Assembly (NCBI GenBank): GCA_030442055.1
Contig: JAUJEB010000004.1
Location: 744,001-808,000 of the forward strand
Reading direction: 5' to 3'
DNA: 64,000 bases
DNA from: Agaribacillus aureus
GTDB taxonomy: Bacteria > Bacteroidota > Bacteroidia > Cytophagales > Cyclobacteriaceae
The first letter of the stretch is position 1. Every line of letters begins with the position of its first letter. This document shows, piece by piece, positions 2,490 to 6,857 of the stretch. A program made the position numbers and the translations under genes. A model generated the notes under the pieces. That model did not search any database. It saw nothing but the letters and a program-made list of their open reading frames with translations, and was not told where the DNA came from.

Positions 2490-3506
2490 ATGGCTTACTA
2501 CATCAAAAAAAAATTATGGCAAATTGACGGCCTCAGGCCGACCCCTGAAAAAATTTATTATAGGAGACGAACTGTCCTTAAAAAACTGGGGATCATTTCA
2601 GGGGGCTTGTTGGGTGGTTCCACTTTGCTCAGTGGCTGTACACAAAAACCAAATAGAGAAAAATCCAATCCGGAACAACCAGGGGTCATTTCCAATCATT
2701 TTAATTTTGACGGGATGGCAGATCTGTATCCTGCCAGGAGGAATGAGAAATACGCACTTGACCGTCCGCTTACAGATGAATACCACGCCACTCATAAAAA
2801 CAACTTTTATGAATTCATAAGCCGCCAGGATCCCGATATCTACAATGTATATAAATTTGTATCAGATTTTGAAAACCGGGATTGGAAAATTGAGGTTTCC
2901 GGACTGGCTGATAACACAGGTACGTTTTACCTGGAAGATCTGATCAAAAAAATGGGGCTTGAGGAACGGACCTATCGTTTTCGCTGCGTGGAAAGGTGGT
3001 CAATGGCGGTGCCGTGGACAGGTTTTCCGCTGGCAAAGCTTATTAAATATTTTGCCCCAAAAAATGAGGCCAGATTTGTGGCTATGGTTTCCTATTCCAA
3101 CGCTGAACAAATGGAAGGCGTCAGGAACCTCACCCATTATCCATGGCCCTATTCGGAAGGTTTGACCATGGAGGAGGCCACTAATGAACTGGCTTTTATG
3201 GCTACAGGGCTCTATGGAAAACCAATTCCCAAACAGAACGGAGCTCCGATCAGACTGGTGGTACCCTGGAAATATGGCTATAAAAATATAAAGTCCATTG
3301 TCAAAATCACCTTTACCGACCAACAGCCAAAAACATTTTGGAATCAGGTAGCTCCAACAGAATATCCCTTTACTTCCAATGTGGATCCCAGCGTTCCCCA
3401 CCCCAGGTGGTCGCAGGCCTTTGAACAAATGATCCCCGATGGCGAAAAAAGGCCTACTTTGAAGTACAACGGTTACGAAAAACTCGTCGCCCACCTATAC
3501 ACCTGA
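2490..3506 (+). CDS. msrP: Protein-methionine-sulfoxide reductase catalytic subunit MsrP (molybdopterin enzyme)
   Basis: 338 residues matching the YedY/MsrP family along its length. It reduces oxidised methionine in envelope proteins using a mononuclear molybdopterin cofactor. The Mo-ligating cysteine is C166 in YRFRCVERWSM; the family blocks PWTGFPL, NGAPIRLVVPWKYG and HPRWSQA are all present. The N-terminus has a twin-arginine motif (RRRTVLKKLG) for folded export, followed by LLSGC (C50), which looks like a lipobox. The mature enzyme may therefore be membrane-anchored, unlike the soluble E. coli protein. The usual partner, the haem membrane subunit MsrQ, is not next to it; the next gene is unrelated and on the other strand. 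A MogA gene for its cofactor lies at 26 kb. Confidence 0.93.
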   Translation: MAYYIKKKLWQIDGLRPTPEKIYYRRRTVLKKLGIISGGLLGGSTLLSGCTQKPNREKSNPEQPGVISNHFNFDGMADLYPARRNEKYALDRPLTDEYHATHKNNFYEFISRQDPDIYNVYKFVSDFENRDWKIEVSGLADNTGTFYLEDLIKKMGLEERTYRFRCVERWSMAVPWTGFPLAKLIKYFAPKNEARFVAMVSYSNAEQMEGVRNLTHYPWPYSEGLTMEEATNELAFMATGLYGKPIPKQNGAPIRLVVPWKYGYKNIKSIVKITFTDQQPKTFWNQVAPTEYPFTSNVDPSVPHPRWSQAFEQMIPDGEKRPTLKYNGYEKLVAHLYT

Positions 3507-3510
3507 CCCA

Positions 3511-3796
3511 TACTCACTAATTACCCCTTCCGGCCAATTCATTCATCTTAATCGACCTATACCCGTCGGGCCACCTTCCCCGGGGAAGGAATTAATTATC
3601 CCTTTTTAAATAAGGAACAAAAAAAGCAACTAAGACAACCCACACTTCACACTCACTCACGAATTACCCCTTCCGGCCAATTCATTTGTCCTAATCGACA
3701 CATTCCCACCAGGCCACCTTCCCCAGGGAAGGATTAGTTATCCCTTTTAAATAAGAACAAAAAACAGTTACTAAGCCCATACTTCACACTCACACT
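3511..3796. repeat. Two tandem copies of a 143-bp intergenic repeat with a central palindrome
   Basis: Unit 1 is about 3511-3653 and unit 2 about 3654-3796; matching landmarks are exactly 143 bp apart. Shared blocks include TTACCCCTTCCGGCCAATTC (3521 and 3664), the palindrome CCTTCCCCGGGGAAGG (3574-3589, perfect) and its one-mismatch copy (3717-3732), and a following T/A-rich run. The CACACTCACT-type block at the end of each unit recurs a third time at about 3784-3800, where it overlaps the stop codon of the next gene. Each palindrome could fold into a hairpin followed by a T-rich stretch, so the units might also act as transcription terminators between the converging genes. Confidence 0.8.
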
Positions 3797-4050
3797 CACT
3801 CTCCTCCGCCTCCCAGCCTATGTCCGGACTTCTGCCACCTGTCCAGTAAAGGTTGCTCCAGCTTAAATTCACGATATTCGTCCGGATTCATAATCGGAAT
3901 TCCCTTTATGATCGGAAACAGGCGTTTACAATCCTGGCAGGAAAGAAACCCTTCTATAACATTACCATCGACATCTTTGGTAATACTTGTTAAGGTCAGC
4001 TCCGCTTTATCAAAAGGACAACACAGTTTTTTTATGGTCTCAAGTTTCAT
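3796..4050 (-). CDS. Trm112-like small zinc-binding protein
   Basis: 84 residues starting at MKLETIKKLCCP; an in-frame upstream start would add 17 residues of atypical sequence and is rejected. Trm112/YcaR-type proteins are small zinc-ribbon proteins; eukaryotic and archaeal Trm112 binds and activates several methyltransferases. Candidate ligands are C10/C11 near the N-terminus and the CQDC pair C38/C41, followed by the family-typical FPIIKGIPIM. It lies on the same strand as the ThiE-like, AIR-synthase-like and methyltransferase genes but is separated from them by a ~160-bp repeat element. Co-expression and a partnership with the methyltransferase are inferences. Confidence 0.75.
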   Translation of the reverse strand: MKLETIKKLCCPFDKAELTLTSITKDVDGNVIEGFLSCQDCKRLFPIIKGIPIMNPDEYREFKLEQPLLDRWQKSGHRLGGGGE

Positions 4051-4099
4051 GTGTTTATAATTTATTTTTTTGTCAGATGGAACCTCACATATTATAATC

Positions 4100-4262
4100 A
4101 TTGCGCTGCGCCTCTGCTAAAGCTTTCTCCGGTCTCTTACGCTTTAGCTTCAGCGACAGCGTGCGGCCGAAGCCTTGCTCCTCCGCTGAAGCTTCGACGA
4201 CACGCGGATGGCGAAGGACTCAGCGACATGCGGTGTGTGTCGATTACGTCATGCTCGGTTTC
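4100..4262. repeat. GC-rich intergenic element with nested inverted repeats
   Basis: A clearly GC-richer block than its flanks, directly after the ThiE-like stop codon. It contains inverted pairs CTAAAGC (4117-4123) with GCTTTAG (4141-4147), and GCTTCAGCG (4147-4155) with CGCTGAAGC (4184-4192). Short GCTT/AAGC and CGAAG words recur throughout. No convincing protein is encoded. It resembles dispersed palindromic intergenic repeats of the type that spread without carrying their own transposase. It may fold in the mRNA between the ThiE-like and Trm112-like genes. Confidence 0.6.
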
Positions 4263-4911
4263 ATGTTTTATTTGCTTTTAATTGTTTTGAATATTTTTGA
4301 ATTGCCAGGTCCGGCTTGTCCGAATTCATGATCCCTGAAATGACCGCTATGCCGTCAAACGGAAGCGCAGCCAATTCCGGCACATTTTCAGGTTTTATGC
4401 CGCCCGCTAAAAACACCGGCATGGACGTTAGACTTTTTGCTTTTTGAATGGTTTCAAATTTTACCAGCTCGCAGCTATTGGAAGTAGTGGACGGAAAAAC
4501 CGAGCAGAAAGAGATGTAATCAAAACCATTTTCATTGGCCCACTGCACCAGTGAAAGATCATTATTACAGGTCAGGCCACTTACAAATTCTCTGTTAATA
4601 GTCTGCTTAATATACTGGAAATTATGCGGTATCCTATCAAAGTGAACCCCGTCTAATGCTGTTGCACGAAGCCATTCCCATTGATTATTAATAAGTACGG
4701 GCACACACTTCTCATGACAGCGCTCAGTGATATTCTGGATTAATTTCAGAGGATCACGTTGCGCTGGGAAATTATCCCATAACTGTACTGCCACAATTTT
4801 TTCTTGCAAAATTAATGTCAGCTTATCCATTAAAACGCTTTCATCCTGTGATGGGTCTATGACCAGGTAAATACCCTGACCTATTTTTCTCTTCCCTTTC
4901 ATTATTTCCAT
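4261..4911 (-). CDS. ThiE/TenI-family protein (thiamine phosphate synthase-like)
   Basis: 216 residues with the TIM-barrel pattern of ThiE/TenI: VAVQLWDN (usual QLREK position), DGVHFDRI, VSGLTCNND, a CSVFPSTTSNSCE loop where ThiE has its GPIFPT-type phosphate loop, MPVFLAGGIKPENV and FDGIAVISGI. True ThiE joins hydroxymethylpyrimidine pyrophosphate and thiazole phosphate to make thiamine phosphate. Here the K of QLREK and the usual T/K of the phosphate loop are replaced, so activity may differ. The gene overlaps the end of the AIR-synthase-like gene by 10 bp, indicating translational coupling in the TPP-riboswitch operon. The family is clear; the exact reaction is uncertain. Confidence 0.8.
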   Translation of the reverse strand: MEIMKGKRKIGQGIYLVIDPSQDESVLMDKLTLILQEKIVAVQLWDNFPAQRDPLKLIQNITERCHEKCVPVLINNQWEWLRATALDGVHFDRIPHNFQYIKQTINREFVSGLTCNNDLSLVQWANENGFDYISFCSVFPSTTSNSCELVKFETIQKAKSLTSMPVFLAGGIKPENVPELAALPFDGIAVISGIMNSDKPDLAIQKYSKQLKANKT

Positions 4912-5957
4912 CCTTTACGAAGTGCCCCAAAGAATGCCTCCCAGTAGGGATCTTCACGGAGATAAGTTAAATTCTTGGCCAGGCCATTTTCCACCAGCTT
5001 GACACCATTTTCTTTCTCCTTGATTTCACCAACCACACAGCAGGGGATGTTTTCCTTTTTCAGACGTTCTATTATCAATGATGCGCTGTCTTTTTTACAG
5101 GTAATAATCATTGATCCCGCACCTACACAATGGCGTGGATCGATTGAGAACAGCGCGCAAACATTCTGCTGTACTTTACCTACCGGAAGGTGGTCACTAA
5201 AAATAAGGGCGCCGCTGTCGGAAGCACTGGCTAATTCATAAATAGCGCCCAGTAGGCCGCCTTCGGTCACGTCATGCATGGCCGTTACATCGTTGTACCG
5301 GGTGTGTTGACCAACAGCGGTCAAAGCATCCCGTAATGATGAAGTGTCATAAAACATGGCACAGGCTTTTTGATAAGCTTCAGCACCAATATAGTTTTTT
5401 ACCGTTTGCGGAAAACTCATGGCCAGTATGGACGTGGCGGAAAGAGCAGCCTGTTTTGTCACTAAAATAGTATCTCCGGGTCTGGCATTTTGAGAAGTGA
5501 GCACCTGCTGCCGGGGAGCGATGGTGAAAAGCGTGCCTCCGCCGGCAATCGTGGAGTTTTGCCCCTCGATAAACCCGGTATGTCCGCCGGTGATAGCAAT
5601 GCCAATGTCGGCACAAAATTTATGAATGTAATTCCAATACGTTTTAAAATCCTGTTTGGAAAGCGTTGGCGGAAGATTTAATACAAACTGTCCATACATC
5701 GGAGCAAAACCCGTCGTCGCCATGTCATTGGCCATCAGGTGCACTGACAGCCAGGCAGATTCTTCCAAACCCAGAGAAGGAATAAGCGACAGCGGATCGC
5801 TCGTGATGGCCATGGCCATACCTCCGGGCAAATCGGTTACGGAAACATCTACGCCAAACCGGGGGCCAACACGCACCTCATTCCTTTGATGTCCACACTG
5901 TGTTCTGACAATATCTGTAAACAGGTGGTGATCTATTTTTCCAAGCTTGTCTTCCAT
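4902..5957 (-). CDS. AIR synthase-related protein (PurM/HypE/ThiL superfamily)
   Basis: 351 residues. Superfamily marks are SDPLSLIPSLG near residue 55, ANDMATTGFAP (the usual ND-metal/ATP segment), ITGGHTGF, RPGDTILVTK and AMHDVTEGGLLGA at the start of the second domain. These proteins bind ATP and phosphorylate or dehydrate a substrate; relatives include PurM, ThiL (thiamine phosphate kinase), SelD and HypE. It lacks the HypE C-terminal cysteine tail and the SelD N-terminal Cys/Sec loop. Sitting between a methyltransferase and a ThiE-like gene under a TPP riboswitch, a ThiL-like kinase role is a reasonable guess but not shown. Its start codon directly abuts the methyltransferase stop (zero gap). 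Confidence 0.8.
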   Translation of the reverse strand: MEDKLGKIDHHLFTDIVRTQCGHQRNEVRVGPRFGVDVSVTDLPGGMAMAITSDPLSLIPSLGLEESAWLSVHLMANDMATTGFAPMYGQFVLNLPPTLSKQDFKTYWNYIHKFCADIGIAITGGHTGFIEGQNSTIAGGGTLFTIAPRQQVLTSQNARPGDTILVTKQAALSATSILAMSFPQTVKNYIGAEAYQKACAMFYDTSSLRDALTAVGQHTRYNDVTAMHDVTEGGLLGAIYELASASDSGALIFSDHLPVGKVQQNVCALFSIDPRHCVGAGSMIITCKKDSASLIIERLKKENIPCCVVGEIKEKENGVKLVENGLAKNLTYLREDPYWEAFFGALRKGWK

Positions 5958-6680
5958 TTATGCAGCATCATTTAATTTAACATAAAGACCAAAAAAATCG
6001 CCATAGGGCAATCCCCATTGTTGCACCGGAAACCACCTTGGCAATCCGGTACACGTCCATTCGATTGAAAAGGACCTGCCCTCCAGGGCCTGATTGATGA
6101 TGTTGATTAATTTTTGCGGCGTATAAAACGTAGCTGTGATGTAAAACGGATTCTTCCCAAAAACCTGTTGAACACGCCTTCTTACTACCTTGGTTGAATT
6201 TCTGTTCATCATGCCCATGGCAATGCCGTACCTGGCAACCCTGGCCGCCTCCTGTATTACTTTGACAGGATCTTTGTAATATTCAAAAGTGGTGATAAAG
6301 GCCAGGGCATCAAAGGTGTGGTCTTTAAAAGGCATATGATGGGAATCAGCCATCACCAGATCGCCGTCAAATAAATGTATGGCTTGTGACAACATAAGTG
6401 GTGAAATATCACCCCCGGTGGCCTGTATTCCGATTTCCTGCCACCATCTTGTAAAACGCGTAGTGCCACAGCCAAACTCCAGTAGTGTTTTGATACGACT
6501 GTCTTTGGACACAAGCTGCTCCATTACCTTTTTCTGCCAGACCTCTGCCCGTTTGTACCGTCCCTCATACCATTGTTCATAAGTATCGGTATATACGCGA
6601 TTGAAAAACCATTCAGGTCTGTTTTGCCAGTTTTGCTGGTTTTGGGGAATTAATTCAAAAGATTTTTTCTCTAACGCCAT
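5958..6680 (-). CDS. Class I SAM-dependent methyltransferase, first gene of TPP-riboswitch operon
   Basis: 240 residues with a Methyltransf_11-type Rossmann fold: motif I LLEFGCGTTRFTRW (about residues 65-78), GGDISPLML (the acidic SAM ribose-binding strand), VMADSHHMPFKDHTFDAL and the FEYYKDP helix. The C-terminal part with repeated aromatic residues probably shapes the substrate pocket. The substrate is unknown; relatives act on small molecules and quinones as well as on proteins and RNA. It is the first gene after the riboswitch and is followed without gap by the AIR-synthase-like gene, so it should respond to thiamine pyrophosphate. A Trm112-like protein at the end of the cluster is a candidate activating partner. 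Confidence 0.82.
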   Translation of the reverse strand: MALEKKSFELIPQNQQNWQNRPEWFFNRVYTDTYEQWYEGRYKRAEVWQKKVMEQLVSKDSRIKTLLEFGCGTTRFTRWWQEIGIQATGGDISPLMLSQAIHLFDGDLVMADSHHMPFKDHTFDALAFITTFEYYKDPVKVIQEAARVARYGIAMGMMNRNSTKVVRRRVQQVFGKNPFYITATFYTPQKLINIINQALEGRSFSIEWTCTGLPRWFPVQQWGLPYGDFFGLYVKLNDAA

Positions 6681-6760
6681 CTTTTTATTTGTTTAAAACA
6701 AAAATTCAACCCTGATGGAAGGCCCAAAAGGATGGCGTATAAAATGGGGTTTTTTAGTAC

Positions 6761-6839
6761 TGCATCCCTACGTTGGCATTATCCAAATCAGGTGTCGGGT
6801 ATAATCTCAGCCAGACTAAGCGTCGGGCACCCCGTGCAT
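6761..6839 (-). promoter_or_regulatory. TPP riboswitch (THI element)
   Basis: Read on the minus strand, the stretch holds all the conserved parts of a thiamine pyrophosphate aptamer in order: ACGGGGTGC, GGCTGAGATTATACCC (pyrimidine-sensor side, CTGAGA at 6810-6805), ACCTGATTTGGATAATGCC (6793-6775) and AACGTAGGGA (to 6765), closed by TGCA/TGCA at the two ends. In the 3' flank, ACCCC (6750-6746) could pair with GGGGT of the 5' half (6833-6829) as an alternative structure, a possible expression platform. About 80 nt separate the aptamer from the methyltransferase ATG. High TPP would be expected to lower expression of the downstream operon. Confidence 0.95.
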
Positions 6840-6849
6840 CTATTAGATA

Positions 6850-6857
6850 CAAACATA
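6850..6857 (-). promoter_or_regulatory. Promoter -7 element (TATGTTTG) of riboswitch operon
   Basis: A perfect TAnnTTTG box on the minus strand, ending about 10 nt before the 5' end of the TPP aptamer. That puts the transcript start just upstream of the closing stem, where a riboswitch leader should begin. Confidence 0.75.

Follow-up and report, generated by a model that had tools for sequence, protein, structure and literature searches.

Which pathway does a thiamine pyrophosphate (TPP) riboswitch serve when the genes behind it are not recognised as thiamine genes? As a rule, a TPP riboswitch reliably indicates thiamine genes. In a stretch of 64,000 nucleotides from Agaribacillus aureus (Cyclobacteriaceae, Bacteroidota; contig JAUJEB010000004.1, positions 744,001 to 808,000; this whole stretch is called the window below), one such riboswitch leads into genes for four proteins, and none of the four can be equated with a characterised thiamine enzyme: a methyltransferase (MT), an AIR-synthase/PurM-superfamily protein (AIRS), a ThiE-like protein and a Trm112-like protein. 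The gene set recurs with its riboswitch, the tree of the operon conflicts with taxonomy, full thiC and thiD and above-cut-off thiE are lacking in most carriers, and the active site of the ThiE-like protein is altered. We tentatively favour, at somewhat less than an even chance, the reading that the operon is an undescribed TPP-repressed pathway for thiamine shortage, in which a thiamine-related compound would be salvaged or repaired. The question also concerns how members of the Bacteroidota obtain enough of the vitamin when the usual thiamine genes are lacking.

Layout of the operon

The operon occupies the minus strand of the window with the following features.

6850..6857, minus strand: promoter-like TATGTTTG, which fits TAnnTTTG (a consensus match only, read directly)
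6748..6844, minus strand: TPP riboswitch aptamer (RF00059, 64.6 bits, E 2.1e-10)
6705..6728, minus strand: terminator-like hairpin followed by a T run (hairpin and T-run rule), a possible expression platform, weak in the window
5958..6680, minus strand: MT, a class I S-adenosylmethionine (SAM)-dependent methyltransferase of 240 amino acids (Pfam Methyltransf_11, 63.3 bits)
4902..5957, minus strand: AIRS, an AIR-synthase/PurM-superfamily protein of 351 amino acids (Pfam AIRS_C, 67 bits; AIRS, 37.7 bits)
4261..4911, minus strand: ThiE-like TIM-barrel protein of 216 amino acids with an altered active site (Pfam TMP-TENI, 104.8 bits)
4102..4260, no strand: GC-rich stretch between the ThiE-like and Trm112-like genes (59.1% GC vs. 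42.1% for the window)
3796..4050, minus strand (open reading frame 4101-3796): Trm112-like zinc-knuckle protein (Pfam Trm112p, 30.5 bits)

The aptamer matches RF00059 over its full length (model positions 1-105) with a score above the gathering score of 54.3 bits, and it is the sole Rfam match above gathering score within the window. TATGTTTG (6857..6850) lies 5 bases ahead of the aptamer; direct reading revealed no clear -33 box near it. The gap between the MT and AIRS genes is zero, and the AIRS and ThiE-like genes overlap by 10 bases. The preliminary description of this locus, which had reported a TPP aptamer with its own TAnnTTTG promoter ahead of these three genes in this order and spacing, was accurate in each of these points. 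It had placed the Trm112-like gene further on; the gene is present, and is counted here as an operon member because its position after the ThiE-like gene is conserved. Comparison with relatives puts its start at the conserved Met18 of the listed open reading frame, near position 4050. In the window it is displaced by the GC-rich stretch, which is possibly a small inserted element; one 31-base piece of this stretch was found once in the window.

None of the four proteins reaches any NCBIfam cut-off, those of the curated thiamine-enzyme equivalogs included, and to our knowledge MT, AIRS and Trm112 are not known as thiamine genes. The present operon shares the upstream RF00059 element and one gene of the ThiE/TenI superfamily with the TPP-riboswitch operons for thiamine biosynthesis and transport described in the consulted part of PMC5613172, but differs from them in having no ThiC, ThiD, ThiG or transporter. 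No description of the operon was found in the literature searched, with supplements and most subscription journals outside the search, so that a table naming it is possible; it is unnamed in the consulted parts of PMC5613172, PMC2211319, PMC3766115 and PMC5372719.

Conservation of the four-gene unit

A scan of genome contigs with AIRS, covering close relatives only, yielded 51 distinct loci in addition to the window. Fifty of the 51 are labelled Bacteroidota, and locus L046, from Raineya, presumably belongs to the same phylum. MT accompanies AIRS in all 51 loci, and all four genes are present in the same order and on the same strand in 50, the exception being L046, which stops at a contig end. 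In 50 of 51 loci the Trm112-like gene comes next after the ThiE-like gene, mostly with an overlap or no gap between them. With gene starts in the relatives picked by script, the gap between these two genes ranges from -60 to +70 in the 50 related loci, and of the 50 loci having both the AIRS and the ThiE-like gene, 42 show an overlap of exactly 10 bases. A check independent of AIRS, made by an MT search of an even sample of the phylum, added seven loci from other genomes. These are more distant (MT 68-79% and AIRS 50-55% identical to those of the window), and all seven have the four genes in order.

The riboswitch is conserved along with the genes. Directly ahead of MT, an aptamer above the gathering score is present in all 50 AIRS-found loci with searched genomes, which are all but L057, and in six of the seven MT-found loci; in the seventh (L070) the match is full length and in place, at 47.8 bits, below the score. 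The preliminary description had proposed a survey of the gene order across Bacteroidota, and the order does recur there behind a TPP riboswitch.

The leaders were also compared by the hairpin and T-run rule, which 32 of 51 leaders pass, compared with 84 of 1020 composition-shuffled leaders. The hairpins are stronger in many relatives than in the window. This enrichment suggests control by transcription termination in many lineages, and weakly so in the window. The 19 leaders that fail the rule include all eight from Chryseobacterium (L019, L023, L027, L028, L030-L032, L036); these keep the aptamer, and the riboswitch there may work through another platform. TPP riboswitches normally switch genes off at plentiful TPP. 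Assuming the same direction in this host, the operon should act at TPP shortage.

Further matches to the TPP model, some of them below the gathering score, occur in all 49 searched carrier genomes (that of the window and 48 others, together holding 50 of the 51 loci) except G003 (1.8 Mb). The genome of the window has two more, in tandem, at 55.2 and 40.3 bits, the second below the gathering score (L004 10119-10374; G000:C32:376118-376373). They stand ahead of a TonB receptor gene, which is followed by a DUF6687 gene; genes for a PnuC-like protein and a NadR-like kinase lie just upstream, and as a guess the NadR-like protein might be a thiamine kinase.

Spread of the operon

A tree of the four proteins was built with 51 rows, the window and 50 loci, L046 being left out for its two lacking genes. 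Starred branches of this tree join Ferruginibacter (Chitinophagaceae) with Pedobacter chinensis (Sphingobacteriaceae), Lacibacter (Chitinophagaceae) with Albibacterium (Sphingobacteriaceae), Arenibacter (Flavobacteriaceae) with Algoriphagus (Cyclobacteriaceae), and Membranihabitans (Saprospiraceae) with two Flavobacteriaceae. The spread is patchy: in the phylum sample, MT was found at E 1e-40 in 8 of 247 genomes (that of the window included) and 6 of 122 genera; the other six genomes sampled from the window's family gave no such match. Since the tree contradicts taxonomy and the spread is patchy, the unit was most simply transferred whole, riboswitch included. Horizontal transfer thus seems to be the cause of the conflict, which is one between protein trees and the named taxonomy, with old duplication followed by loss as a possible alternative. 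Two operon copies, all with a riboswitch, occur in each of Arenibacter sp. F26102 (L013 and L024) and A. arenosicollis (L018 and L022). The copies are 87 to 96% identical by gene in F26102, where they lie ~32 kb apart on one contig, and 80 to 96% in A. arenosicollis. Algoriphagus alkaliphilus and the Marivirga and Pedobacter strains each gave a single copy.

In the plasmid collection no close MT relatives were found (10 records, all below 33% identity), the ThiE-family matches were below 28% identity among the 25 matches listed, and Trm112 gave one haloarchaeal match. No MT was found in viral contigs. A defence-system role was considered and dropped; the only sign of it was a mad2 match of MT at 23.7 bits, which was taken as the common methyltransferase fold.

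No fifth shared gene was found beside the operon in the 51 loci, the next commonest neighbour cluster being confined to eight loci, all from Chryseobacterium. The neighbour script considered frames of at least 90 amino acids within ~5 kb, fewer at contig ends, and caught MT itself in 44 of 51 loci and Trm112 in 37 of 51, so short or odd neighbours can escape it. The neighbourhoods bear on the idea that the operon makes a modified thiamine, or an antimetabolite of thiamine, to be exported or used in competition. Such a product would suit the patchy spread and the presence of a methyltransferase next to thiamine-fold proteins. However, there is no conserved neighbour, transporter or other, and an OFF switch would halt production at plentiful TPP, which is the wrong direction for a product derived from TPP. 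We consider this idea very unlikely.

Thiamine genes in the carriers and the phylum

The carriers were searched for the usual thiamine genes. Four of the 49 have thiC above the cut-off, and one more (G021) has a partial match below it. The same four are the only carriers with ThiE above the cut-off and with full-length ThiD-type matches, which lie on the thiC contig within a few kb and score below the curated cut-off; elsewhere ThiD matches are partial. Full-length ThiG occurs in two carriers, both among these four; short partial matches in 30 more genomes pass the 23-bit Pfam ThiG cut-off and were taken as other TIM barrels. All carriers but one, a 2.5-Mb metagenome assembly, have thiL above its cut-off (48 of 49). 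By the genes searched, then, most carriers look like thiamine auxotrophs. Because 45 of 49 carriers have no full thiC, no full-length ThiD and no ThiE above the cut-off, a product made from free hydroxymethylpyrimidine (HMP) and thiazole by those enzymes is unlikely.

The genome of the window has no thiC, no ThiG and no ThiE match other than the ThiE-like protein, with ThiH, ThiM, TenA, THI4, THI5 and YjbQ outside the search; its only ThiD match is partial (49.8 bits, in a frame of 305 amino acids), and it has a full thiL at 326 bits. The preliminary description had called ThiC, ThiG, ThiH and ThiD absent from the set; across the genome the same holds for thiC and ThiG and, with the partial match, for ThiD. 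It had taken a normal thiL and thiE elsewhere together with a unique cluster as the outcome that would speak against it; a normal thiL is present, whereas no second ThiE was found and the cluster recurs in other genomes.

Of the 247 genomes in the phylum sample, 87 have thiC and 187 have thiL; by genus, thiC is confined to 18 of 122. None of the eight operon genomes in this sample has thiC. Replacement of ThiC by the operon was considered on this account, yet with thiC confined to so few genera the lack of overlap excludes little. Retention of thiL was likewise dropped as a sign of thiamine phosphate production, thiL being present also in relatives that have neither operon nor thiC.

The ThiE-like protein

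The ThiE-like protein scores 104.8 bits with Pfam TMP-TENI, above the 27-bit gathering score of a family that also holds TenI, and 96.5 bits with the thiE equivalog, below the cut-off of 145.1. It matches thiamine phosphate synthase 1g4t along its length (77.7 bits by profile). Residue numbers and roles follow Bacillus subtilis ThiE (1g4t/2tps), with Arg59, Lys61, Asp93, Asp112 and Lys159 as the ligands of pyrophosphate and magnesium. Arg59 corresponds to Trp45 and Asp93 to Asn76 in all 51 ThiE-like sequences. The position of Lys61 (47) is Asn in 39, His in 11 and Cys in one, never Lys, and that of Lys159 (144) is Lys in 0 of 51; Asp112 aligns with Pro95 (46 sequences), Gln (4) or Glu (1). The thiazole-phosphate end is kept, with GGI and Ser192 in 51 of 51 sequences and Thr143 in 48. 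The protein shares its superfamily and the thiazole-phosphate end with B. subtilis ThiE, but lacks the ligands for pyrophosphate and magnesium and carries two cysteines, Cys136 and Cys147, that are invariant. The label "ThiE-like" of the preliminary description is apt at the superfamily level, though not at these ligand positions, and the changed residues disfavour, as far as an alignment can tell, the protein as the cell's thiamine phosphate synthase. With the thiazole tautomerase TenI (1yad) it shares the TMP-TENI superfamily (51.3 bits by profile). However, the match is weaker than that to ThiE, and 47 of 49 carriers have no full-length ThiG to supply the TenI substrate.

The altered site also bears on an alternative synthesis, in which thiamine phosphate or one of its rings would be made from different precursors than ThiC and ThiG use, with ThiL then taking it to TPP. 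Several observations would fit: 45 of 49 carriers have no full thiC, full-length ThiD or above-cut-off ThiE and yet 48 of 49 have ThiL, full-length ThiG is found in only 2 of 49, and the operon combines a ThiE fold with TPP control. On the other hand, thiL needs no operon (the six other genomes of the window's family, for example, have thiL without operon or thiC), a set of four genes is small for making two rings and joining them, and the ThiE-like site has no ligands for HMP pyrophosphate (HMP-PP). Such a synthesis appears quite unlikely to us.

The AIRS protein

AIRS shares the two-domain AIRS architecture and conserved acidic positions with ThiL, HypE and SelD, but remains under the cut-off of every NCBIfam model, with 75.2 bits for HypE (cut-off 251.6), 71.8 for ThiL (184.15) and 62.3 for SelD. 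The acidic residues D37, D54, D78 and D229 are present in all 52 sequences and in six distant relatives, and AIRS is a probable ATP-dependent enzyme. HypE has a C-terminal cysteine. AIRS has none of this type; it ends in FGALRKGWK, and position 351 is Lys in 49 of 52 sequences, Gln in two and Arg in one.

The preliminary description had guessed that AIRS takes the role of a ThiL-like kinase and had named thiL missing where AIRS is present as a sign in its favour. This sign is not seen. AIRS as the missing ThiL was rejected on account of thiL in 48 of 49 carriers, of the score of 71.8 bits against 184.15 and of the genome's own thiL. The TPP-linked side branch that it had proposed stays plausible given the conserved riboswitch, without AIRS as its ThiL. 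The wider view, that AIRS and the ThiE-like protein are simply the ThiL and ThiE of these genomes, can point to superfamily membership and nothing else, and is countered by the separate thiL, by the two sub-cut-off scores (96.5 bits against 145.1 for ThiE) and by the changed ligand residues. It is hardly credible.

Within the plasmid collection, the nearest AIRS relatives outside Bacteroidota are distant, being haloarchaeal "AIR synthase family" proteins with 31% identity. On three Haloarcula plasmids (L059 4499-7020, L063 and L064) the AIRS relative lies divergently beside genes for a thiamine-binding protein and for a thiamine ABC substrate-binding protein; the thiamine-binding protein of L064 belongs to the MTH1187 family.

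The methyltransferase and the Trm112-like protein

MT is the most conserved protein of the operon, with a mean pairwise identity of 82.3% compared with 64.9% for AIRS, 61.8% for Trm112 and 52.0% for the ThiE-like protein; 132 of its 240 positions are conserved in at least 98% of 52 sequences. Distance correlations link MT best with Trm112 (0.77) and AIRS best with the ThiE-like protein (0.84), values that are all inflated by shared ancestry and are suggestive only. Among solved structures, MT matches the 18S rRNA (guanine-N7)-methyltransferase, a Trm112 partner, in third place by sequence (E 5.2e-7) and in fourth by profile (E 1.2e-6). This match spans 80-92 residues of the common SAM fold, and other methyltransferases rank above it.

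The Trm112-like protein is above the Pfam Trm112p cut-off of 22 bits and scores 55.6 bits with the archaeal Trm112 NCBIfam model, below the cut-off of 77. The Trm112 signature, [C/D]PX[C/D]X19-36CX2C (consulted part of PMC5372719), is present as C28 P29 F30 D31, 23 residues, and C55 x2 C58. C28, D31, C55 and C58 occur in 51 of 51 sequences and P29 in 46. According to the consulted part of that 2017 review (PMC5372719), the targets of the characterised Trm112 partners are tRNA, rRNA and a release factor, some bacterial orthologues are fused to methyltransferases, and nothing was known to its authors of the function of bacterial orthologues. MT and the Trm112-like protein probably form a two-subunit methyltransferase holoenzyme. 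The likeness to the eukaryotic and archaeal Trm112 activator network (PMC5372719, in part) lies in the zinc-knuckle signature and in an operon shared with the gene for a class I SAM methyltransferase; the present case differs in being bacterial and in a TPP-controlled operon, with an MT below every NCBIfam cut-off. For bacterial Trm112 this supplies a regulatory context and a specific candidate for the partner methyltransferase, compared with no bacterial partner known to the review (PMC5372719, consulted part).

The main competing explanation starts from this pair. In a TPP-sparing or stress response, MT with Trm112 would methylate RNA or protein, or a compound made by the operon would bypass a TPP-dependent step; the operon would be on at low TPP and no thiamine would be made. 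The macromolecular targets of characterised Trm112 partners (PMC5372719, in part) and the match to the 18S enzyme point this way, and the high identity of MT is what a macromolecular partner might impose. However, such a response leaves the ThiE-fold and AIRS proteins of the operon unexplained, and the 18S match is limited to the common SAM fold and ranks third or fourth. We regard it as possible but doubtful.

A possible response to thiamine shortage

A carrier that has no HMP and thiazole genes would profit at low TPP from salvage, repair or sparing. Of these, salvage or repair is favoured because a single TPP switch governs proteins connected with thiamine or with ATP and phosphate. The extra TPP matches in the genome of the window adjoin uptake-type genes, which also counts for this reading, as do the thiamine-related neighbours of AIRS relatives on the Haloarcula plasmids. 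In the proposed scheme, low TPP would release riboswitch repression and the operon would be expressed, mostly in hosts without the usual thiamine-synthesis genes. MT and Trm112 would act as one holoenzyme, and AIRS would use ATP, probably for the activation of a small molecule at an oxygen or a phosphate. The ThiE-like barrel would keep the phosphate end of its pocket, with cysteine-dependent chemistry replacing HMP-PP coupling. The putative product, a salvaged or repaired thiamine-related compound, would pass to host kinases, ThiL included, which would finish TPP. We think it unlikely, if conceivable, that the unit is a compact transferable pathway in which a Trm112-dependent small-molecule methyltransferase, an ATP-dependent AIRS and a cysteine-using ThiE fold yield thiamine phosphate from a source that no known pathway uses, feeding ThiL in bacteria without ThiC, ThiD and ThiE.

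Several observations weigh against salvage or repair. Four of the 49 carriers do have thiC, thiE and thiD, and this share is close to the background of 18 in 122 genera; since thiC lack is common in the phylum, the link between the operon and thiC loss is weak. A second ThiE-family match of 108-126 bits in G006, G011 and G013 may represent a working ThiE. The lack of thiamine genes in the carriers covers the searched genes only, with YjbQ, THI4 and THI5 outside the search; YjbQ is an alternative to ThiE (PMC5613172, consulted part). Retention of thiL says nothing about the operon, because thiL is common without it. The conservation of MT, far above that of its partners, would also fit a macromolecular substrate. 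The Haloarcula loci come from one genus and amount to one observation; AIRS relatives in Halobacterium, Haloferax and Acaryochloris have different neighbours, which makes the link between AIRS and thiamine neighbours weak.

Features beside the operon

A homologue of the MsrP catalytic subunit (370 bits vs. a cut-off of 207) lies at 2490-3506 of the window on the opposite strand, convergent with the operon, and no link between the two was seen. Between this gene and the operon, at 3499-3775, a unit of ~143 bases occurs as two tandem copies with 83% identity over 92 bases. Both copies contain the palindrome CCTTCCCC[G/A]GGGAAGG.

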